From a virus: 28,976 nt of DNA. Every line of letters begins with the position of its first letter. The stretch's first letter is position 1. The notes below the pieces were generated by a model. It was not told where the DNA came from. It made no database searches and saw nothing but the letters and a program-made list of their open reading frames with translations. A program made the translations under genes and the position numbers. The DNA is taken from positions 1 through 28,976 of the IMG/VR virus record IMGVR_UViG_3300045999_010060. The stretch is one strand, 5' to 3'. This document shows, piece by piece, positions 4,149 to 19,270 of the stretch.

Positions 4149-5714
4149 ATGGCTGCAATTATAACTGATCAGATTAGAATATTAAATGCTAAGAACTTTG
4201 TTGCTGGAGTAACTACCTCTACTAATTCTTACTATACTTTTGTTGGTCTTCCAAATCCAACCAACATTCAAAGTGATTGGGATACTACTCCACCATCTCC
4301 TAGAGATAGTTTTGATGAAGAAAATAACTACTGGGATACGATGATTGCATTGAAGAAAATAAATTCTTCAGATGTGCGTCAGGTAATTCAAAAAAGAGTA
4401 TGGTCTTCTGGGACTACGTATGATTATTACAGGCACGATTATAGTAGATCAAATGTTGCTCCAGTCTCCGGAGCAACAAGTTTATACTCCTCATCATATT
4501 ACGTATTAAATAGTGACTACAGAGTTTATGTTTGTCTTCAAAATGGAACCGATCCAACTTATCCAAGTGGAAGACCATCATTGGATGAACCAACATTTGT
4601 CGATCTAGAACCAAGAGCGGCTGGAGCAAGTGGAGATGGGTACATTTGGAAATACCTTTACACTATCAAACCAAGTGATATTGTAAAATTTGAATCAACT
4701 AATTTTATGCCAGTCCCATTAAATTGGGAAACGAGTGCGGATAATGCTTCTGTAAGAAATAACGCAGTTGATGGATCCATAAAAATAGTCACCATCAAAA
4801 ATCGTGGAGTTGGCGTTGGCACCGCGAACAGAACTTATACAAGAGTTCCAATTAGGGGAGATGGTACTGGCGCAGAATGCACCATTGTTGTTAATAATGA
4901 TCAACAAGTTGAATCAGTAGTAGTTTCAAATCAAGGTTCCGGTTATACCTACGGTAATGTTGATTTGGTTGCTGGAAGTGTTCCTACAGGATCAGTCAGA
5001 CCATCTTTTGATGTGATTATTTCTCCAAAAGGAGGGCATGGAGCAGATATTTATAGAGAGTTGGGAGCATACAATGTTCTTTTATATTCAAGAATTGAAA
5101 ATGATTCACAAAACCCAGATTTTATAACGGGAAATCAAATTGCAAGAGTTGGTGTTGTAGAAAATCCAAAACAATTTGGATCAACACAATTACTGAACAC
5201 AGACAAAGCAAGTGCTGCATATGCAATAAGATTAACTGGTGTTGGATATAGTTCAGCGTCATTTTCTCCAGATTCTTTGATCACTCAAACGGTAGGTACT
5301 GGTATAACTGCTTCTGGTAGAGTAATTAGTTACGATCAAACAACCGGAGTCTTAAAATATTGGCAAGATAGAACTCTTGCTGGATTTAGCACAGGAAGCA
5401 CATCAGTTGGTATAGCACAAACTAATCCACAATATGGATTTGATTTGGTTGAATTTACGAGCAATCCATTATCCGGAGGAAGTCTGGTAATTAATGGAAA
5501 TACTGGATCTACATTATCAATTAGTACATCCTTTACAGGTATATCTACAGTAATAAATAGTAGGACCTACTATCTTGGTCAGTCTTTTGTAAATGGTCTA
5601 TCAAATCCAGAGGTCAAAAAGTACTCTGGAAACATAATTTATGTTGATAACAGACCAGCAATTACTAGATCATCAAACCAAAAAGAAGATATTAAAGTCA
5701 TTTTGCAGTTCTAA
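4149..5714 (+). CDS. 8: gp8, baseplate wedge subunit
   Basis: This is the structural subunit gp8 of the T4-type baseplate wedge. The diagnostic matches to T4 gp8, recalled from memory, are the internal 'GDGYIWKYLYTI' block (T4: GDGYVWEYLFEI) near residue 162, the 'YWDTMIALKKI' region (T4: MWTHMMGTVKV) near residue 62, and the C-terminal 'IIYVDNRPAITRSSNQKEDI' block (T4: MIYMENRPPIIMAMDQTEEI). The protein has 521 residues against 334 in T4. Much of the excess lies between about residues 210 and 460 and contains a 'VVVSNQGSGYTYGN' repeat (about 258) of the type found in gp14 and the flanking giant proteins. It follows the gene 7-position protein by 24 bases carrying a late promoter and is followed six bases later by the DUF4815 gene. 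A perfect 9-bp inverted repeat lies within its coding sequence. The ATG start has no good ribosome-binding site but fits the length and T4-like N-terminus. Confidence 0.93.
   Translation: MAAIITDQIRILNAKNFVAGVTTSTNSYYTFVGLPNPTNIQSDWDTTPPSPRDSFDEENNYWDTMIALKKINSSDVRQVIQKRVWSSGTTYDYYRHDYSRSNVAPVSGATSLYSSSYYVLNSDYRVYVCLQNGTDPTYPSGRPSLDEPTFVDLEPRAAGASGDGYIWKYLYTIKPSDIVKFESTNFMPVPLNWETSADNASVRNNAVDGSIKIVTIKNRGVGVGTANRTYTRVPIRGDGTGAECTIVVNNDQQVESVVVSNQGSGYTYGNVDLVAGSVPTGSVRPSFDVIISPKGGHGADIYRELGAYNVLLYSRIENDSQNPDFITGNQIARVGVVENPKQFGSTQLLNTDKASAAYAIRLTGVGYSSASFSPDSLITQTVGTGITASGRVISYDQTTGVLKYWQDRTLAGFSTGSTSVGIAQTNPQYGFDLVEFTSNPLSGGSLVINGNTGSTLSISTSFTGISTVINSRTYYLGQSFVNGLSNPEVKKYSGNIIYVDNRPAITRSSNQKEDIKVILQF
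4454..4478 (+). repeat. Perfect 9-bp inverted repeat inside gp8
   Basis: TGTTGCTCC (4454-4462) is the exact reverse complement of GGAGCAACA (4470-4478), with a 7-base loop. No T-tract follows, so it does not look like an intrinsic terminator. It may be a transcript hairpin or a chance result of codon choice. Confidence 0.45.
5552..5559 (+). promoter_or_regulatory. Possible internal late promoter box AATAAATA in gp8
   Basis: The box lies inside the gp8 coding region about 160 bases before the 2512-residue gene, which has no promoter box of its own. A chance match is quite possible in AT-rich coding sequence. Confidence 0.22.
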
Positions 5715-5720
5715 AGAATT

Positions 5721-8700
5721 ATGTCCCAAGTAACAAACCTCAACGTATCGCCATATTTTGACGATTTTGATGCAAATAATGACTACTATAAGGTTCTTTT
5801 TAAGCCTGGATATCCAATTCAGGCAAGAGAACTGACAACTTTACAGTCTATTTTACAAAATCAAGTTGAGAAGTTTGGGCAACACTTTTTTAAAGAGGGT
5901 GCAAAAGTAATTCCTGGCAATACTTCATATAATCAATTTTATTATGCAGTAGAATTAAATAACACTTACTTGGGTGTTCCAATAGATGCTTATGTAGAGC
6001 AACTTGTTGGAGCAAAAATTACTGGACAGACTTCGGGAATCACTGCAGTAGTTGAAAAAGTACTGCTATCTACTGATTCCGAAAGAGGTAATGTTACGTT
6101 ATATGTAAATTATTTAAGTTCAAGTACACAAAATAATTCAACTGTCCAGTTTTTAGATGGCGAAGGTCTTTCCTCAAATATAACCATAACTTCAGGGTTA
6201 TTGGGGAACACTTCAATTTCGGCAGGAACTCCTTTTGGAATCACTATTGCAAGTAATGCAACTTCTGTTGGATCTGCATTTTCAATTACAGAGGGTGTTT
6301 ATTTCATAAGAGGATACTTTGTAACAGTAAATACAGAGACTCTAATCTTAGATCAATATTCAAACAATCCAAATTATAGAGTAGGATTGTTTGTAAATGA
6401 AGAGGTCATCAACTCTGATGTTGATGAATCATTGAATGATAACTCTCAGGGATTTAATAATTATGCTGCACCTGGAGCTGATAGATTAAAAATTTCAGTG
6501 TCTTTGTTTAAAAAAGACTTAACTGACTTTAATGATAATAATTTTGTAGAGTTAGCAACAATTGTAGATGGTGTAATAAAGACTAATAGAATTTCTAAAG
6601 ATTATAGTTTAATTCAGGATGAATTAGCTAGAAGAACCTATGCAGAATCTGGAGACTACTATGTAACTCCATTTGACTTAACTATTAAAGAATCCCTAAA
6701 TGATGGATTGGGAAATAGAGGTGTATTTAATCAGGGACAATTCACTTATGGAGGTTCTACTCCATCAGAAAATCTTGCGATTTATCAAGTTTCTCCTGGA
6801 AAGGCATTTGTACGTGGATATGAAGTTGAAACTACTTCCCCGGTATTTTTAGATTCAGATAAACCAAGAACAACATCAACACTTAAAGATTTATCAATTA
6901 ATTATAATACAGGATCTACTTTAACTCTAAACAGAGTATTTGGATCTCCTATTATTGGAATAGGAAATACTTATGTTTTAAGTTTAAGAGACTCAAGAGT
7001 TGGAACTGCATCTACCACTCCATCAGGTAAAGAAATTGGAGTAGCTAGAGTTTATGATTTTAGATTAGAGTCTGGTTCGTATGATACAACCAACTCTAAT
7101 CTAAATCAGTGGAATATTTCATTGTATGATGTTCAGACTACAACTGAGATAACTTTAAACGAACCAATTACTCTTTCGGTTCCAACATTTATAAAAGGTA
7201 AAAATAGTGGAGCAACTGCATTTTTAAAGAATTCGGTAACTAATAGCGCATCTATTGTACTCTATCAGAAGAGTGGTGATTTTATTCCAAATGAATCTTT
7301 TATAATTGATGGTATTGGAAACAATAGAGTTGCTACTGCTATTACTTCATATGGCATTTCTGACGTAAAATCTGTTTATGGTATTGTAGGATCTGCAAAA
7401 ACTTTCAATGCAGATACAGTTCAAGCAGATTTATTTAATGTTGGAATTGCTACTATCAGTGCAGTAAGTGGTGGGATAAGTACGATCACCAGCACAAATG
7501 AGAATTTCCCCGGAAAAATTGTCAAGGTTGGGAATTTAATCAAATTTAGCAATAATTCAACATCATTGCCAGTATATGCTAGCGTACAAAGTGTTGGAAA
7601 AACGACAATAACAGTATCTGGTGTTACAACAGTAGCTGATATAAATCAGGGAGCACTTCCATCATCAACTCTGAGTGTCTCTGATCTGAAAATTCTTGGA
7701 ACAAAACTAGTAAGATCAACTGATGACACTTTATACACTATTTTACCTAGACCTAATGTATCGTCTGTAGATCTAACAAATGCTTCATTGACAGTTAGAA
7801 AAACTTTTAACGTTACTATTGCTAATAATCAACTGTCTACCCCTGTTACTGCAGGAGATAATGAAACATTTTTACCATTTGATGAAGAAAGATATTCTTT
7901 GATTAGATCTGATGGAAGCACAGAAGTTCTTACCTCAGATAAGTTTGACTTTATTAATGGATCAACTCAAATTCAGATTTACAATCTGGGTACAAATGAT
8001 AATGCAACTTTAGTTGCTACACTAAGGAAGATTAAACCAAAATCAAAGATTAAACTAAAAAATAGGGTTTCTTCATTAATAATTGATAGATCAAAATACG
8101 AATCATCTGGAATTGGCGCAACTACACTGGATGATGGTCTAATTTTTGGAAATTATCCCTATGGAACTAGAGTTCAAGATGAAAATATTTCTCTCAACGT
8201 TCCAGATATTATTAATGTTTATGGAATATATGAATCTAAGACAACATCAAATCCATCTGCTCCAACTTTAGTACTATCTTCAATAAGTGGACCAACTACA
8301 AAAACAACTGACTTAATTATAGGAGAGCAATTTGTTGGGCAATTGAGTGGTGCTATTGGCGTATGTGCAGAAAGATTAACTGATTCCCAAATATCATTTA
8401 TTCCTCTCAATGAGAGTACCTTCAAAGAAGGCGAGACAATCACATTCTCCGAGTCAAATATTCAAGCAGTTATTACTACAATAGATTCGCCAAGTTCCAA
8501 TATTTCATCAAACTTTAAGTTTGATAATGGACAAAAAGGATCATTCTATGGTTATGGCGCAATTAATCGCACACCAGATTCACCCGAACCAACTAGAAAG
8601 ATAAAAGTATATTTTGCTAGTGGATATTATCAAAGTTCCGATGATGGTGACATTACAACTATAGAGTCATATCGTGGATTTGATTACAAGAAAGATATTC

Positions 8701-11700
8701 AAATCGTGAATTCTGTAAGAAATTCTGATATGATTGATATCAGACCAAGAGTTTCTGCTTATACTTTAACTGAAAATTCAAGATCTCCATTAGAATTTTA
8801 TGGAAGATTATTTAATGGATCTGGCAATTCTGCATCTAATATTTTAGCTTCTGACGAATCTATTGTCACTACTTTCTCATACTATCTTGGAAGAATTGAT
8901 AGAATTTATGTTCGCAAAGATGGAACATTCCAAGTTAAGTATGGAATTCCATCAGAAAAACCAGAGAAACCAATTTCAGTTGAAGATGCTCTAGAGATTG
9001 CAACTGTAACCTTACCTCCGTATCTGTTTGATATATCTCAAGCTTCTGTTCAATTCCTTGAGCACAAGAGATATAGGATGGTTGATATTAAGCAGCTTGA
9101 GAACAGGATCAAAAATCTTGAGTATTATACTGCTTTATCAACTCTAGAATCTAATACCGCAAATCTATTTGTTCCAGATTCTGATGGATTAGATAGATTT
9201 AAATCAGGATTCTTTGTAGATAATTTTAGTTCTCTCAATTCTCAAGAAAATGGTCTTCCTTTTGAAAACAGTATTGATCTTAAGAATAAAGAATTGAGAC
9301 CAAAACATTACACAACTTCGGTTGATCTTATTCAAGGTCCAGTTGAAGGACTTGATTCACAAGTAGATATTGCGTTTGAACCTCCTGAAGGAAATAATAT
9401 CAGAAAAACTGGAGATTTAATTACTCTTGATTATACTGAAGTAGAATGGCTTAAGCAGTCTTTTGCGACAAGAACAGAAAATGTAACTCCTTTCGTAATT
9501 AGTTTCTGGCAAGGAACGATTGAGTTAACTCCATCTACTGATACTTGGGTTGATACAGTTCGTTTAGATGCCAAGGTAATTAATGTTGAGGGTAATTATG
9601 CCCAAACAATGGCTCTTGCTCAACAGCAATTTAACGTTGACCCACAAACTGGGTATGCACCTACTGTATGGGGATCATGGGAAACTAATTGGACAGGTAA
9701 AGAAGTTATAGAAACAGTCCAAACAAGATCTGATACTAGTTATAACTATGGTTATTATGGAAATTGGTGGTGGGGATGGCCATATGGATACGGATATGGA
9801 TACTGGGGATATTATGGATATTGGGGTTGGCATAGAGGATATGCTACAACTACGGTTACTCAAGATACGTATAGAGAAGTAAAAGAAACTGGTGTTAAGT
9901 CAAGAACAGGAACAACAACATTCGTTACTGAGCAATTTGACAGAAGTTCTATTGGAGATAAAGTTGTAAGTAGAGACTTGGTACAATATCTGAGATCAAG
10001 GAATCTACAATTTATTGCTAAAAATGTAAAACCATTGACACAACTTTATGCATTCTTTGATGGTGTTGATGTTACCAAATATTGTATCCCCAAACTGCTT
10101 GAAATTAGTATGGTTTCCGGTGTGTTTGAAGTTGGAGAGACTATAATTGGTACAATTAAAAAGACTGGACTAAATGAAACTACAATTGAAGAAAGTGATC
10201 CCAAAATTACATTTAGACTTGCCCAATCAAATCATAAAGAGGGTCCATACAACAACCCAACGTCAACATATCCACTAAATCCATATACAAGTCAAACTCT
10301 TGCGGCAACTTACTCGTCCACAAGTGATACCTTAAATATTGATACATTCTCACTATGTGCCCAATATCAAGGAGAATATAGTGGTTGGGTTCAATCTGGA
10401 ATGACTTTAGTTGGAAAAACCAGTGGTGCTCAGGCAACTCTTACCAACGTGAGATTAGTATCTGATGTATACACCTCACTGATTGGTAGTTTCTACATTC
10501 CAAATCCAAATATATCAGTCAATCCAAGATTTGAAAATGGTTCAAAGACTTTCACTTTAATAAACAATACTATCAATGACAGAAACCTTGCTTCAACTGT
10601 TGCTGAAGAGAAGTTTATTTCAAGTGGAACTTTAGAAACTGTTCAAGAAAATATCATATCAACCAGAAATGCAAGAATTGAGCAAAAACAGGAGCTGCAA
10701 CAAGAAAAGGTTGCAAGAACTACAGGAGCTCAATTAGTTGGCAGTAATGTTGTTTCAAAAACAACTAACTGGTATGGATGTCCTTGGTGGGATCCTCTTG
10801 CACAATCTATATTAGTTCAAGAAGAAAGTGGAATATTCCTCACCAAATGTGACATATTCTTTAAGTCCAAAGATGATGCAGATATTCCCGTAGTGTTCCA
10901 GATTAGAACAATGCAAGGTGGATATCCAACACAAACTGTTCTTCCATTCTCTGAAATCATATTAGATCCGGAGCAGGTTAATCTCTCCAATGATGGAACA
11001 GTTGCAACATCGTTTGTATTTAAATCTCCAGTTTACCTTGAAGGTGGGAAGGAATATGCAATTGTTGTGGGTTCAAACTCAAACAAATATAATGTCTTTA
11101 TTTCAAGAGTCGGTGAGGTTGATTTACTAACACAATCTTATATTTCAAATCAACCATATCTTGGATCTCTGTTTAAATCACAAAATGCTTCAACTTGGGA
11201 GCCAAGTCAGTGGGAAGATTTGAAGTTTACCTTATATAGAGCTAATTTCTTAAGTTCAGGTAGTGTAGAGTTCTATAGTCCAGAACTGACTCCAGGAAAC
11301 TCCCAAGTTCCTACGTTGCTACCAAATTCTCTTGGATTAAATTCCAGAAAAGTTAGAATTGGTCTATCAAGTGCAATTGCTGATAGTGGATTGACCTTAG
11401 GAAATACAATTCTTCAGCAAAACACAAATGCAACTGGAAACTATGTAGGAAATGCTGGAATTGCTACTGGCACTCTCCAGGTTATTAATGCTGGTATAGG
11501 ATACACTCCATCATCAGGATCTTTGACTTTCAATAACGTGGATCTTGTTACAGTAACTGGAAATGGTAGAGATGCAAAAGCTAATATTACAATCTCAAAT
11601 GGCGTCGCAATAGCCGCAACAGTTATTAATTCTGGAAATGGTTATCAGGTTGGAGATGTATTAGGTATTTCTACGCTTGGTTCAGTTCCAAGTGGAAGAA

Positions 11701-13259
11701 ATGCTCTATTCTCTCTTGTCTCTATTGCAAGCACAAATGAACTCATTCTTGATAATGTACAAGGTGATTTCTCTGTTGCAGGAACTGGAAAAACTGTCCA
11801 GTATGTCAATAATTCCGGATTAACTACAACACTAAATGCATCCTCAGGTGGAAACGTACAAATATCTGCTATTAATGTAGATAGTGATGGTCTGCATATT
11901 GTAGTAAATCATAAAAATCATGGAATGTATTTTGACGATAATTATGTCAGAATTTCTGGTGCAGAAACGGATGTTCCTCCAACAAAACTAACATCAGATT
12001 ACTCTTTTGATGCTACATCATCTATTTTGGTTGCAGATTCAAGCAAATTTACAACCTTTGAAAATGTTGGAGTTGGAACAACAAATCCAGGATATGCTTT
12101 GATTGGAAATGAATTGTTTGAATATCAATCAGTAACCACTGGTTCTTTGGATAATGTAACAAGAATTGGTTATATTGATCCAACATTCTTCAATACTCTT
12201 GCATCATCAGCAATAACTCATCCAACTGGAACTCCTGTTTACAAATATGAACTTGATGGAGTTTCTCTAAAGAGAATTAATACAACACATTATCTTAAAA
12301 ATGTAACTGTTTCAAATCCAATATCGTTTGATTCTTATAATATTAAGATTCAAATGGATTTAAATGGAGTTGATAGAAGTACTGGGTCCAGCTTCCCCAA
12401 ACTATATCTAAATCAAACAAAGTCTGCTGGTGGATTTAACATAAAAGCTACTCAAAATATTCCTTTTGAACTCGTTACTCCATCTGTACAAAATATTACC
12501 GTACAGGGAACTTCTATTAATGCAGAAATGAGGACTATTACTGGATCAAGTATAAGTGGAAACGAAATTCCATTTACTGATAGTGGATTTGAGCCTGTTA
12601 CTTTGAATAAAACAAATTACCTATCAACACCAAGAATAATTGCATCAAAAATAAATGAAGATGCAAAGTTGGGTGCATTTATGGGTAAAAAGTCTATGAA
12701 TTTAAGAATGTTCTTAAATTCCGTAGATTCTAGAGTAAGTCCAGTTATTGATACGCAAAGAGTAAGCGCCATACTTACTTCTAATAGAATTAATAAAGTG
12801 ATTACTAACTATGCAACTGATAATAGAGTAAACTCAATTGGAACAGATCCATCTGCATTCCAATATATTTCCAAAGAAATTAGTTTGGAAAATCCAGCGA
12901 CTTCTATCAAAATTTTATTGGATGCTCACATCAATAATTACTGTGACGTAAGAGCATTCTATTCAATTGGCGAAGAGCAGAACTTTATTCCAATATTTAC
13001 TCCATTCCCTGGATATAATAATTTAGATGGTAAGAAACAAATTATAAGTTTTGAAAATAGTAACGGATTACCTGATGTTTTTGTTCAACCATCACTTTCA
13101 TTTGGATTTGAATCAAATAATATTGAATTTAGGGAGTATAGTTTTACTGCCGACCAACTTCCATCATTCCGTTTTTATAGAATTAAGTTGGTTCTTACTT
13201 CAACAAGTCAAGTCTATCCACCAAGGGTCAGAAATCTAAGAGTAATCGCACTTGCATGA
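5721..13259 (+). CDS. DUF4815-type giant virion structural protein (baseplate/tail-fibre network)
   Basis: At 2512 residues this is the largest protein in the window. The N-terminus, with 'SPYFDDFDANNDYYKVLF' followed by 'PGYPIQARELTTLQSILQNQ', is the signature I associate with the phage DUF4815 family. It occupies the place of T4 genes 9, 10, 11, 12 and wac, none of which I can find here, so it probably supplies peripheral baseplate or fibre-attachment functions; this is inference from position. Visible parts: N-terminal family domain (roughly 1-450); 'SGATAxx'-type beta modules (about 95, 495, 875 and 1570); a helical, possibly coiled segment around 'IKQLENRIKNLEYYTALSTL' (about 1123-1142); a Tyr/Trp/Gly tract at 1341-1374; a helical Gln/Glu-rich stretch near 1655-1675; a beta domain with 'GYPTQTVLPFSEI' and 'EGGKEYAIVVGSNSNKY' (about 1735-1850); two 'NxGxGY' repeats (about 1920 and 1967); and a C-terminal beta domain ending 'PPRVRNLRVIAL'. 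The last bases overlap the next ATG. Confidence 0.85.
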   Translation: MSQVTNLNVSPYFDDFDANNDYYKVLFKPGYPIQARELTTLQSILQNQVEKFGQHFFKEGAKVIPGNTSYNQFYYAVELNNTYLGVPIDAYVEQLVGAKITGQTSGITAVVEKVLLSTDSERGNVTLYVNYLSSSTQNNSTVQFLDGEGLSSNITITSGLLGNTSISAGTPFGITIASNATSVGSAFSITEGVYFIRGYFVTVNTETLILDQYSNNPNYRVGLFVNEEVINSDVDESLNDNSQGFNNYAAPGADRLKISVSLFKKDLTDFNDNNFVELATIVDGVIKTNRISKDYSLIQDELARRTYAESGDYYVTPFDLTIKESLNDGLGNRGVFNQGQFTYGGSTPSENLAIYQVSPGKAFVRGYEVETTSPVFLDSDKPRTTSTLKDLSINYNTGSTLTLNRVFGSPIIGIGNTYVLSLRDSRVGTASTTPSGKEIGVARVYDFRLESGSYDTTNSNLNQWNISLYDVQTTTEITLNEPITLSVPTFIKGKNSGATAFLKNSVTNSASIVLYQKSGDFIPNESFIIDGIGNNRVATAITSYGISDVKSVYGIVGSAKTFNADTVQADLFNVGIATISAVSGGISTITSTNENFPGKIVKVGNLIKFSNNSTSLPVYASVQSVGKTTITVSGVTTVADINQGALPSSTLSVSDLKILGTKLVRSTDDTLYTILPRPNVSSVDLTNASLTVRKTFNVTIANNQLSTPVTAGDNETFLPFDEERYSLIRSDGSTEVLTSDKFDFINGSTQIQIYNLGTNDNATLVATLRKIKPKSKIKLKNRVSSLIIDRSKYESSGIGATTLDDGLIFGNYPYGTRVQDENISLNVPDIINVYGIYESKTTSNPSAPTLVLSSISGPTTKTTDLIIGEQFVGQLSGAIGVCAERLTDSQISFIPLNESTFKEGETITFSESNIQAVITTIDSPSSNISSNFKFDNGQKGSFYGYGAINRTPDSPEPTRKIKVYFASGYYQSSDDGDITTIESYRGFDYKKDIQIVNSVRNSDMIDIRPRVSAYTLTENSRSPLEFYGRLFNGSGNSASNILASDESIVTTFSYYLGRIDRIYVRKDGTFQVKYGIPSEKPEKPISVEDALEIATVTLPPYLFDISQASVQFLEHKRYRMVDIKQLENRIKNLEYYTALSTLESNTANLFVPDSDGLDRFKSGFFVDNFSSLNSQENGLPFENSIDLKNKELRPKHYTTSVDLIQGPVEGLDSQVDIAFEPPEGNNIRKTGDLITLDYTEVEWLKQSFATRTENVTPFVISFWQGTIELTPSTDTWVDTVRLDAKVINVEGNYAQTMALAQQQFNVDPQTGYAPTVWGSWETNWTGKEVIETVQTRSDTSYNYGYYGNWWWGWPYGYGYGYWGYYGYWGWHRGYATTTVTQDTYREVKETGVKSRTGTTTFVTEQFDRSSIGDKVVSRDLVQYLRSRNLQFIAKNVKPLTQLYAFFDGVDVTKYCIPKLLEISMVSGVFEVGETIIGTIKKTGLNETTIEESDPKITFRLAQSNHKEGPYNNPTSTYPLNPYTSQTLAATYSSTSDTLNIDTFSLCAQYQGEYSGWVQSGMTLVGKTSGAQATLTNVRLVSDVYTSLIGSFYIPNPNISVNPRFENGSKTFTLINNTINDRNLASTVAEEKFISSGTLETVQENIISTRNARIEQKQELQQEKVARTTGAQLVGSNVVSKTTNWYGCPWWDPLAQSILVQEESGIFLTKCDIFFKSKDDADIPVVFQIRTMQGGYPTQTVLPFSEIILDPEQVNLSNDGTVATSFVFKSPVYLEGGKEYAIVVGSNSNKYNVFISRVGEVDLLTQSYISNQPYLGSLFKSQNASTWEPSQWEDLKFTLYRANFLSSGSVEFYSPELTPGNSQVPTLLPNSLGLNSRKVRIGLSSAIADSGLTLGNTILQQNTNATGNYVGNAGIATGTLQVINAGIGYTPSSGSLTFNNVDLVTVTGNGRDAKANITISNGVAIAATVINSGNGYQVGDVLGISTLGSVPSGRNALFSLVSIASTNELILDNVQGDFSVAGTGKTVQYVNNSGLTTTLNASSGGNVQISAINVDSDGLHIVVNHKNHGMYFDDNYVRISGAETDVPPTKLTSDYSFDATSSILVADSSKFTTFENVGVGTTNPGYALIGNELFEYQSVTTGSLDNVTRIGYIDPTFFNTLASSAITHPTGTPVYKYELDGVSLKRINTTHYLKNVTVSNPISFDSYNIKIQMDLNGVDRSTGSSFPKLYLNQTKSAGGFNIKATQNIPFELVTPSVQNITVQGTSINAEMRTITGSSISGNEIPFTDSGFEPVTLNKTNYLSTPRIIASKINEDAKLGAFMGKKSMNLRMFLNSVDSRVSPVIDTQRVSAILTSNRINKVITNYATDNRVNSIGTDPSAFQYISKEISLENPATSIKILLDAHINNYCDVRAFYSIGEEQNFIPIFTPFPGYNNLDGKKQIISFENSNGLPDVFVQPSLSFGFESNNIEFREYSFTADQLPSFRFYRIKLVLTSTSQVYPPRVRNLRVIALA
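9741..9842 (+). repeat. Tyr/Trp/Gly low-complexity tract (coding)
   Basis: Codons 1341-1374 of the 2512-residue protein encode 34 residues, of which 12 are Tyr, 7 Trp and 10 Gly. At the DNA level it is a degenerate repeat of GGATAT/TATGGA units. It separates a beta-rich region from the segment containing 'VVSRDLVQYLRSRNLQF'. Confidence 0.9.
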
Positions 13260-13492
13260 TGGAAATGGAATATTTAAAGGTAGAGGGTCATAATAATCTC
13301 ATTAGAGACCCTCAGACTAATTCAATTATTAATACAAACATGACAGAATACCACCAGTATCTTGCAAGACGTAACGTGAAAAATGAAGAGAATCAAAAAT
13401 TACAGAATTTAGAGTCTGATGTGACTAATATGAAAAATGATTTAGATGAAATTAAATCACTACTTAGGAGTTTGATTGATGGATCCCGATAA
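13256..13492 (+). CDS. Small conserved-type protein with C-terminal coiled coil
   Basis: This 78-residue protein has the N-terminal motif 'YLKVEGHNNLIRDPQTNSII', of the 'hxxLxRDxxTxAIIN' type that I recall in small proteins of T4-like marine phages, then a charged heptad-like segment ('LESDVTNMKNDLDEIKSLLRSLI', given here as residues about 52-74) predicted to be a coiled coil. The function is unknown; a small virion or assembly factor is a guess from the neighbourhood. The ATG at 13256 overlaps the TGA of the giant tail gene (ATGA), which favours coupled translation; in-frame ATGs at 13259 and 13265 are alternatives, and the last would start at 'MEYLKVEGH'. It overlaps the next gene by 14 bases. 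Confidence 0.75.
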   Translation: MMEMEYLKVEGHNNLIRDPQTNSIINTNMTEYHQYLARRNVKNEENQKLQNLESDVTNMKNDLDEIKSLLRSLIDGSR

Positions 13493-13658
13493 AATAGAAC
13501 TTGAAAATTTGAGCAAAAGTTTTGAATACTTTAAAGTAGCATCAGAAATTGATAATATTGATAACATAGATGATGCCAAAAAAATTGCCAAATGTTATTA
13601 TAAATTATACTTAAAGCAGCAAGAAGTTGTTGCACAACTCATAACATCAAAACCATAA
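13479..13658 (+). CDS. Small acidic helical protein, unknown function
   Basis: A 59-residue protein beginning 'MDPDKIELENLSKSFEYFKV' and ending in a helical 'KCYYKLYLKQQEVVAQLI' segment. Similar short proteins occur, as far as I recall, next to gp13 in marine T4-like phages; no function is known to me. I chose the ATG at 13479 rather than the in-frame TTG at 13476 because GGAG at 13467-13470 is 8 bases upstream of the ATG, a normal spacing. The reading frame overlaps the end of the preceding small gene by 14 bases, and its stop codon lies inside the late promoter box of gp13, showing tight packing. Confidence 0.7.
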   Translation: MDPDKIELENLSKSFEYFKVASEIDNIDNIDDAKKIAKCYYKLYLKQQEVVAQLITSKP

Positions 13659-13681: not shown

Positions 13682-14530
13682 ATGGCGCAACCATCTACTA
13701 GACAAGAATTAATAGATTACTGTAAAAGGAAACTGGGAGCGCCAGTTTTAGAGATTAACGTTGCAGATGAGCAAATTGAAGATCTTGTGGATGATGCTGT
13801 TCAATTTTTCCAAGAAAGACATTTTGATGGTGTTTATCCGACGTTTTACAAATATAAAGTAACTGCAGATGACATTGCTCGCGGAAGAGCAAAGGGAATA
13901 AATCAAAACAACGTTGGTATTGTTACAACAACGGCAACCGCAAACATAGTTGGAACCGCAACAACTTTTTCGTATTTTGAAAATAGCAATTATCTACAAG
14001 TTCCACCAAATGTAATTGGAGTGAATAAGATTTTCACTTTTGATGGCGCTAATACCATTACACATAATATGTTTAGCGTTAAATATCAGTTATTCTTAAA
14101 CGATATTTACTACTGGGGAACAACTGAACTATTAAGTTACGCAATGGTTAAGACGTATTTGGAAGATTTGGACTTTCTTTTAAATACACAAAAACAAATT
14201 AGATTTAATAAAAGGCAAGACAGACTATACCTTGATATTGATTGGGGATCAGTTACAGAAAATCATTTTTTTGTAATTGATTGTTACTCTACTTTAGATC
14301 CAAATGATTATTCGCGAGTTTGGAATGACTCTTTCCTTAAACCATATTTAACTGCTCTGATTAAAAGGCAGTGGGGACAAAATATGATGAAATTTACTGG
14401 TGTTAAGTTACCTGGTGGAGTTGAGTTAAATGGAAGACAAATGTATGATGATGCACAGAGAGAGATAGATATTTTAATGGAAAAAATGTCCAGCACATAC
14501 GAACTTCCTCCCTACGACATGATCGGGTAA
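13682..14530 (+). CDS. 13: gp13, neck (head-completion) protein
   Basis: This is the T4-type neck protein gp13, which with gp14 seals the portal vertex after DNA packaging and provides the site where the tail joins. Recognition rests on the N-terminus 'TRQELIDYCKRKLGAPVLEI', the following acidic stretch 'EQIEDLVDDAVQFFQERHF' (about residues 26-44), the size (282 residues against 309 in T4), and its place immediately before gp14. The C-terminal half is helical and charged ('QREIDILMEKMSSTYELPPY'). A short Thr/Ala/Gly stretch near residues 75-95 ('GIVTTTATANIVGTATTF') looks like a small lineage insertion. The gene has its own late promoter and is separated from gp14 by three bases. Confidence 0.93.
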   Translation: MAQPSTRQELIDYCKRKLGAPVLEINVADEQIEDLVDDAVQFFQERHFDGVYPTFYKYKVTADDIARGRAKGINQNNVGIVTTTATANIVGTATTFSYFENSNYLQVPPNVIGVNKIFTFDGANTITHNMFSVKYQLFLNDIYYWGTTELLSYAMVKTYLEDLDFLLNTQKQIRFNKRQDRLYLDIDWGSVTENHFFVIDCYSTLDPNDYSRVWNDSFLKPYLTALIKRQWGQNMMKFTGVKLPGGVELNGRQMYDDAQREIDILMEKMSSTYELPPYDMIG

Positions 14531-17425: not shown

Positions 17426-17567
17426 GCAGTTTCAAGAAGAATGGACTAATAAATATAAAAAGAGTATTAATTGCTCAGATCCAAAAGGATTCTCTCAACG
17501 TGCTCATTGTGCGGGGAGAAAAAAAAGAGCAAAAGGTGAGAGTACTAAATCAAAACCAGTTGAATAA
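17412..17567 (+). CDS. 51-residue basic two-cysteine protein with MKTFKQF N-terminus
   Basis: The frame from ATG 17412 to TAA 17565-17567 encodes 51 residues starting 'MKTFKQFQEEWTNKYKKSIN' and then 'CSDPKGFSQRAHCAGRKKRA'. It overlaps gp16 by 14 bases and its last base is the A of the next ATG (TAATG), which supports it as a real gene despite its size. The N-terminal peptide resembles the capsid-targeting peptide of T4 internal proteins (MKTYQEFIAEA); the basic 'C...KGFSQRAHC.GRKKR' tail could bind nucleic acid or metal. I recall similar 'NPKGFSQKAHCxGRKKR' motifs in other cyanophage proteins. Function unknown; packaging with DNA in the head is a guess. No clear ribosome-binding site is visible, so it is likely translated by coupling. 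Confidence 0.7.
   Translation: MKTFKQFQEEWTNKYKKSINCSDPKGFSQRAHCAGRKKRAKGESTKSKPVE
17448..17455 (+). promoter_or_regulatory. Possible internal late promoter box AATAAATA
   Basis: The box lies inside the 51-residue gene, about 110 bases before the 567-residue gene and could feed it and gp17. It encodes ordinary Asn-Lys-Tyr codons, so it may be fortuitous. Confidence 0.3.
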
Positions 17568-19270
17568 TGCCCAAGATCAAGTCACATAAAACAGTTGAGC
17601 AAATTGCAAAGAAGCATCGTCTTGATGTTTCTTTCATACAAAAGCAACTTGACATGGGAGAACCCATTGAGCATGAGCATACAAAAGATCATGATCTTGC
17701 CAAAGATATTGCTCTTCAGCACTTGGACGAAATTCCAGATTATTATACTCGTTTGAAAAAAATGGAAGCAGATGCCAAAAAGCATCACAAAAAATTTAAA
17801 GATGTTACTGAGGAAGGTCTTCGCGATTGGTTTGGAAAATCCAAATCAAAGGATGGAAAATCCGGTTGGGTCAATGTAGTGACTGGTGGAACTTGTGCAA
17901 GTGATGAACCTGGAGAGGGTGTCCCCAAATGTGTTTCATCTGCGAAAAGGGCAAGCATGACTCCAGCAGAAAGACTTTCGGCAGCAAGAAGAAAAAAAGA
18001 AGCAGATCCTGGACAACAACAAAAAACAGGATCTGCAAAACCAACCTATGTTTCTACAGATTCACCTAAGAAGAAAATGAAAGAAGAAATGGATGTGCAG
18101 GAAGCAAAAGATAAACCAGGCAAAGGTAGCGGAAAAAAAGATGCTTGCTACAGTAAGGTCAAGTCTCGTTATAGTGTCTGGCCAAGTGCATATGCTTCCG
18201 GTGCTCTTGTAAAATGCCGTAAAGTTGGCGCAGCGAACTGGGGAAATAAATCTGAAGCAGTTGAAGAACAAAGATACTGCCCTCTTTGCGATAAGAGGGA
18301 AACAAGATCTGAATGTTCGTATGGAGAAAAAGCCTGGGATAAGGTTTCTGTGAAAGACGAAGAATATTCAATGGCAAGATCGGAACTAAAAACCATTGTT
18401 AATGCTGTGAAGAGACTTCAATCAAAAGTTGGTAGGGGAGAAGGAGATCTTGAGGCATGGGTACAATCAAAAATTACCAAAGCAGCAGACTATATTGACA
18501 CTGCAGCAGATTATGTTAATAGTGGAGAAATGGAAGAGGCATGTTGGTCTGGATATAAGCAAGTTGGGATGAAAAAGAAGGGCAAAAAGATCGTCCCAAA
18601 TTGTGTTCCAGCAACAGAACAAACTATTCAAGATTTGAATGGAAATACTTTTGCGGAGGTCATTGACTTAATAAAACCAGATCCAATCAAAGGTTTTAGA
18701 TCTCAAGTCAAGGAAGCAACAAGACTCCAGGCACAAACTGGAAACGTAATTGCGGTTTCTCTTTCTTGGAGAGGTAAGTACTATTCTCTCAAGATGTTCT
18801 TCCCACAAGTAAAAATTCCAACTCGCAAAGAAATTAGTGATGAGTTACAGAAAGTATATCCTGGATGCATTGTAGTTTACCACTCAGTATCAGAAATTCA
18901 ACCTGGACAACCATTAATTCAACCATTTGGACCTCAAGGTGGCAGTTTTGCAAAACCAGGTCCAAGTAAAAATTATGTAAAAACTATGGGAGAAGGAGTT
19001 GAAGTTGATGAGGATTGGCAGAAGGTAAATCGTCAGGACAAGACAGATGGTTTAAGTCCAGAAGCAGTTAAAGCATATCGTAGAGAAAATCCAGGTTCAA
19101 AACTTCAAACTGCAGTTACTGAAAAGAATCCAGAAGGAAAAAGAGCAAAACGTCGTGCTTCGTTTTGTCGCAGAATGAAAGGTATGAAATCAAAATTAAC
19201 TTCTGCAGAAACTGCAAGAGATCCGGATTCAAGAATTAATAAAGCACTTCGTCGCTGGAACTGTAATTAA
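17567..19270 (+). CDS. Multidomain mosaic protein in the terminase block, function unknown
   Basis: A 567-residue, Lys/Arg-rich protein with at least six segments. Residues 1-75 ('KTVEQIAKKHRLDVSFIQKQ', then HEHTKDHDLAKDIALQHLDE) resemble what I remember as DUF5661. Residues 82-145 ('DWFGKSKSKDGKSGWVNVVT', C110, C122, 'MTPAERLSAARRKK') resemble DUF5872-like proteins. Residues 191-228 are a 'ACYSKVKSRYSVWPSAYASG' motif. A Cys cluster lies at C238, C241 and C250. Residues 265-350 are helical ('KITKAADYIDTAADYV'). Residues 394-442 form a domain shared with the 105-residue protein at 25975. Residues 483-567 ('DGLSPEAVKAYRRENPGSKL' ... 'SFCRRMKGM' ... 'ALRRWNC') resemble a C-terminal domain found in many phage proteins (DUF6321, from memory). 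It sits between gp16 and gp17. A packaged or DNA-associated virion protein is possible; no enzymatic motif was identified. Confidence 0.8.
   Translation: MPKIKSHKTVEQIAKKHRLDVSFIQKQLDMGEPIEHEHTKDHDLAKDIALQHLDEIPDYYTRLKKMEADAKKHHKKFKDVTEEGLRDWFGKSKSKDGKSGWVNVVTGGTCASDEPGEGVPKCVSSAKRASMTPAERLSAARRKKEADPGQQQKTGSAKPTYVSTDSPKKKMKEEMDVQEAKDKPGKGSGKKDACYSKVKSRYSVWPSAYASGALVKCRKVGAANWGNKSEAVEEQRYCPLCDKRETRSECSYGEKAWDKVSVKDEEYSMARSELKTIVNAVKRLQSKVGRGEGDLEAWVQSKITKAADYIDTAADYVNSGEMEEACWSGYKQVGMKKKGKKIVPNCVPATEQTIQDLNGNTFAEVIDLIKPDPIKGFRSQVKEATRLQAQTGNVIAVSLSWRGKYYSLKMFFPQVKIPTRKEISDELQKVYPGCIVVYHSVSEIQPGQPLIQPFGPQGGSFAKPGPSKNYVKTMGEGVEVDEDWQKVNRQDKTDGLSPEAVKAYRRENPGSKLQTAVTEKNPEGKRAKRRASFCRRMKGMKSKLTSAETARDPDSRINKALRRWNCN

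Follow-up and report, generated by a model that had tools for sequence, protein, structure and literature searches.

A Tyr/Trp/Gly-rich tract at the hypervariable, predicted hairpin apex of a cyanophage VrlC baseplate protein is a candidate contact loop

The virus record analysed here, a genome fragment of 28,976 bases which we call the window, encodes a large baseplate protein of the VrlC/DUF4815 family that contains a tract built almost entirely of tyrosine, tryptophan and glycine. Comparison with related viral contigs places this tract in a single clade and at a hypervariable site where sequence cassettes turn over, and reveals purifying selection on it. We tentatively read the tract as a selected, lineage-specific contact loop on a hairpin arm, most likely one for the host surface, and hold this reading with a little less than even confidence.

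Results

All features open to testing (profile, length and gene order) place the protein in the VrlC family. Its 2512-residue reading frame (5721-13259, plus strand) matches the phrog_358 profile over its full length (residues 1-2512, 2099 bits) and the Pfam DUF4815 profile PF16075 with 190.5 bits against a cut-off of 30, the best-matching Pfam stretch being residues 1045-1280 (8853-9560, plus strand), which ends just short of the hairpin described below. The gene is preceded by a gene for a gp8-like baseplate wedge protein (4149-5714, plus strand; phrog_438, PF09215), before which stands a wedge gene that was assigned to gp7 by position, and it is followed by a gene for a gp13-like neck protein (13682-14530, plus strand; phrog_211) in the position where Bellamy and S-SM2 have their neck protein gene. 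The resulting order, gp7 - gp8 - VrlC - gp13 - gp14 - gp15 - gp16, is that of cyanomyoviruses and is shared by the Synechococcus phages Bellamy and S-SM2, in which the equivalent gene is named structural protein or VrlC. A tract of this kind also occurs on two long contigs (205 and 284 kb), each of which carries two genes of the Photo_RC family (PF00124), the family of psbA and psbD, and this marks the lineage as one of cyanophages. In the description of PMC7029224, VrlC belongs to two-layered baseplates and lies at the edge of the host recognition cluster.

Two small open reading frames lie between VrlC and gp13 (13256-13492, 78 residues, and 13476-13658, 60 residues; both plus strand), the first of which overlaps the VrlC stop; Bellamy and S-SM2 have small hypothetical genes in the same position. 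Further downstream, a 567-residue protein with an N-terminal DUF5661 and a C-terminal DUF6321 is encoded between the genes of the small and the large terminase subunit (17567-19270, plus strand); in Bellamy a putative tail fibre gene follows the small terminase subunit gene.

The tract itself, YNYGYYGNWWWGWPYGYGYGYWGYYGYWGWHRGY, is the translation of positions 9741-9842 (plus strand) and corresponds to amino acids 1341-1374 of the frame 5721-13259. With 12 Tyr, 10 Gly and 7 Trp, including one WWW, these three residues account for 29 of its 34 positions, which confirms by translation and count what the earlier note had reported; the note was also right to describe a sticky, aromatic stretch within a large structural protein of a phage, which can now be named as VrlC/DUF4815. 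Outside the tract Tyr, Trp and Gly together make up 12.1% of VrlC (binomial probability of at least 29 in 34, 3.8e-22), the runner-up 34-residue segment of the protein holds 10 such residues, and 7 of the 20 Trp of the whole protein sit in the tract. On the minus strand no open reading frame of 80 or more amino acids overlaps it. All contigs of the viral collection that encode WWWGWPYG do so in VrlC genes. When the collection of bacterial and archaeal genomes was scanned once for an exact pattern coding for YWGYYGYWG, no match was obtained, looser forms being possible. A sequence match to PDB 4f54 was dismissed as compositional, being confined to the low-complexity stretch. YGYYGYYG stretches occur in three viral open frames other than VrlC (L196, L213 and L197; 370-837 amino acids), in surroundings that are rich in Tyr, Arg and Trp or in Gly.

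The Tyr/Trp/Gly tract is present in 26 viral contigs, the window included, and in 17 distinct versions; of these contigs, 25 could be placed, all in a single clade (support 100/98). Because the nearest record of the annotated phage collection is only about 61% identical over the tract region, that collection appears to contain no cultured member of the clade. The tract segment ranges from about 32 to 45 codons across the clade, always in frame. A sequencing or assembly error, which had been named as one way in which the initial observation could fail, is almost certainly not the explanation: nothing was found in its favour, and it is refuted by the many in-frame versions in contigs of several datasets, among them one identical tract in four contigs from four different metagenome datasets (L174, L175, L177 and L178). 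The other way would have been for nearly identical phages to lack the tract. In one contig nested in the clade, L005, a short unrelated apex does replace it; this contig, however, is only about 80% identical. In another, L222, the Tyr/Trp/Gly core lies within a 122-residue insert with Ser/Thr-rich flanks, the longest apex of the clade.

Could such a tract be neutral low-complexity filler, drifting in a tolerant loop by slippage and recombination? The length variation in frame, the natural loss in L005 and a local peak of divergence at the tract would all fit this explanation, which we nevertheless consider very improbable, as it is essentially refuted by the codon data. Over 39 tract codons L193 and L204 differ by 15 synonymous changes and not a single amino acid change (pS 0.69), and in the 14 codons directly upstream of the tract pN between the two is 0.33; in three other pairs the tract has a dN/dS of 0.04-0.13. 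These codon comparisons show the tract to be under purifying selection. Moreover, when the window is compared with L001 and L174, three of the five replacements at Tyr, Trp or Gly positions are exchanges between Tyr and Trp that take two base changes each. Of the 173 random single substitutions in the tract codons that are neither silent nor create a stop, 7 yield another of the three residues, which gives P ~6e-4 in what is a rough test on few events with shared ancestry. Composition is retained over all 17 distinct tracts, and the alignments thus show it to be constrained while wording and length turn over. Finally, the DNA repeat is weak. TRF reports two small imperfect arrays in the tract, each with a score of 35 (9782-9802, period 6, 86% matches; 9795-9822, period 9, 73% matches), and synonymous codons are mixed (TAT with TAC, GGA with GGT), so that a microsatellite-type slippage locus, for which a near-perfect tandem repeat would be expected, finds no support. 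The idea that slippage would let the tract expand and contract is thus borne out as far as in-frame length variation goes and is at odds with the lack of a clean repeat.

In close pairs the tract is a local peak of divergence. L171 differs from L174 and L175 at 16 of 100 bases in the tract and at 0-2 per 100 in the preceding 700 bases; for L172 and L176 the figure is 7 of 100 in the tract and at most 3 in the other full 100-base bins. Recombination may contribute to these peaks, the genomes being mosaic. In the comparison of L171 with L174 and L175, VrlC is a mosaic in which blocks of 0-3% divergence lie beside blocks of more than 10%, one of which begins at the tract, as expected for recombining close relatives. 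At the end of the tract, L172 and L176 differ in four adjacent codons (GWHR against RRRW) in contigs that are otherwise near-identical; clustered as it is, this change resembles the outcome of template switching or of local recombination.

Across the VrlC family, the site occupied by the tract stands out by its variability. Among 30-residue intervals covering amino acids 671-1980, those around the tract show the greatest spread in length (SD 6.3 against a median of 0.14) and the top entropy (2.58 against a median of 0.995), and the apex ranges from 1 to 53 residues in 101 diverse relatives. Frequent apex cassettes are QGPGGR, GGWINGGSG or GGWPNGG, GLRGNGNLTGGEW, and short Thr/Arg forms. Apices outside the clade contain on average 16.5% Gly, 12.8% Arg and 0.4% Tyr, the sister lineages of the clade having polar Gly/Arg tips; Tyr makes up 35% of the apex in the window. 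In a VrlC tree of 103 rows, built with the tract columns left out, branches with good bootstrap and SH-aLRT support require no fewer than 5 changes for QGPG, 7 for GGWxN and 3 for LRGNG, and they show in this way that apex cassettes unrelated in type have been gained or lost repeatedly. Exchange between lineages would be the simplest cause of this turnover, with repeated convergence as the alternative. Given such strong variation among related viruses, the apex is probably a contact surface that can be exchanged, perhaps one for the host cell. As a source of the variation, a diversity-generating retroelement was considered and rejected, for the changes in the tract (TAT/TGG, GGT/GGG) are not confined to adenine; no reverse transcriptase gene was seen among the scanned reading frames of the window, which is a genome fragment.

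Structure prediction indicates where this variable site lies in the protein. An earlier AlphaFold2 (AF2) run on 74 sequences (A2) was of low confidence (mean pLDDT 59). A second run (A3), which modelled amino acids 1226-1480 as a monomer with 101 diverse relatives (mean pLDDT 71, pTM 0.29), predicts two long antiparallel strands, namely residues 1321-1343 (9681-9749, plus strand; pLDDT ~86-90 over most of the strand) and 1373-1394 (9837-9902, plus strand; ~84-89 over most), with the intervening tract at ~46-59. The tract is thus predicted to be the apex of a long β-hairpin, itself of low confidence between two confidently predicted strands, and not an interdomain linker; this placement, together with the purifying selection on the tract, speaks against the flexible low-complexity linker considered in the earlier note. 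The low pTM of this monomer model makes the exposure and orientation of the apex in the virion no more than putative. In the viral fold library, matches were mainly to VrlC/DUF4815-like entries, and Foldseek against the PDB gave no significant fold match for the hairpin, the best having an E value of ~0.05.

The weak and non-significant resemblance to the stems of pore-forming proteins that appeared in the same search bears on a membrane role of the apex, which had also been proposed on first inspection. Trp and Tyr favour membrane interfaces, and an aromatic apex might insert into the outer membrane, or lie on it, as the tail fires. However, the strands carry polar residues on both faces and lack the amphipathic pattern of membrane-spanning strands, for which reason a pore-former stem hairpin was rejected, and the tips of the sister lineages are polar too. 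A hairpin that spans the membrane is therefore unlikely; a tip that merely touches it survives as a proposal, if a quite improbable one.

Discussion

What, then, would the apex contact? We propose that a long two-stranded β-hairpin arm would project from the cyanophage baseplate protein VrlC and carry the tract as an exposed loop at its apex. The apex would serve as a hypervariable display site at which lineages bear different, mostly Gly-rich cassettes on a kept scaffold, and the lineage of the window would have gained a Tyr/Trp/Gly cassette and retained it under selection. Trp, Tyr and Gly are suited to stack against sugars or at the interface of a membrane. The aromatic rings may thus stack on host-envelope material, be it a glycan or the outer-membrane surface, and the contact could help in attachment or in triggering of the baseplate. 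We favour host-envelope contact because of the cassette turnover, the baseplate setting and this aptitude for stacking. Two points count against it: conservation of composition would be expected from a conserved contact within the virion too, and L005, a member of the clade, manages without the tract. The surface-contact role first suggested for the tract is hence retained as the best reading, with the host envelope as its putative partner.

The main rival of host-envelope contact is a joint within the virion, in which the apex would pack on a baseplate or fibre protein or on other VrlC arms and its variability would track a co-varying partner. Tracts of aromatic residues and glycine are suited to protein-protein packing. 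The strongly constrained composition would agree with such a joint, as would the place of VrlC in the baseplate (PMC7029224). However, the repeated swapping of cassettes on a conserved scaffold goes beyond what is usual for a structural joint, and in some relatives the apex shrinks to 1-2 residues, L042 having about two. We therefore regard the joint as possible but doubtful, and contact with the host surface as likelier than contact with another virion protein.

On a broader scale, VrlC arms might display exchangeable apex cassettes for host contact, apart from the tail fibres, with one clade having an aromatic adhesive; as a general statement this is speculative and on balance unlikely. Much the same caution applies to the notion that in such an adhesive, in a clade that is uncultivated, it is the composition that is kept rather than the exact sequence. 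Contact between the cyanophage baseplate and the host is poorly known, and a hypervariable apex in a conserved and easily recognised protein offers a single testable site. If the reading is true, the Tyr/Trp/Gly form would be an unusual low-complexity phage adhesive maintained by selection.

The closest known counterpart is cyanomyovirus VrlC itself (PF16075, phrog_358, T4-GC 400; Bellamy, S-SM2, P-RSM4 and S-TIM4), which is of the same family and has the same gene order, the 101 aligned relatives sharing the hairpin site with its variable apex. The annotated phages examined have GGWxN, QGPGGR or other tips, whereas the apex in the window is rich in Tyr, Trp and Gly; Bellamy and S-SM2, too, bear a different cassette there. 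Hypervariable loops on tail proteins are already known, and the Tyr/Trp/Gly apex is an unusual, lineage-specific variant. In adhesins of the T2-type gp38, a conserved tail-protein scaffold carries hypervariable loops in which Gly-rich motifs occur (PMC12892980). The likeness to VrlC is one of logic, receptor binding being only putative for the protein of the window: gp38 is a polyglycine-II sandwich at the tip of the long tail fibre, whereas VrlC is a baseplate protein. With no sequence or fold match between gp38 and the VrlC of the window, and with a different protein in a different place, VrlC was rejected as an adhesin of this type.

The sole credible sequence relative of solved structure is PDB 9euf, along with 14 further entries. 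We take it to be a protein of Staphylococcus phage 812, because its residue numbering (559-614) agrees with that from a translated search of the phage genome, where the rest lies in a second frame; in a literature search, no publication describing the structure of this DUF4815 protein came up. Its flanks are homologous to VrlC of the window on both sides of the hairpin. The span between the flanking anchors, however, is only 55 residues as compared to about 120, so that the phage 812 protein lacks most of the hairpin and the tract. By these alignments the long hairpin either arose as an elaboration in the cyanophage branch or was lost in the other. The phage 812 record KJ206559 (20245-23702) splits the DUF4815 gene into two open reading frames, Gp122 and Gp123, that are not in the same frame; in the solved structure the chain is a single protein of 1152 residues.
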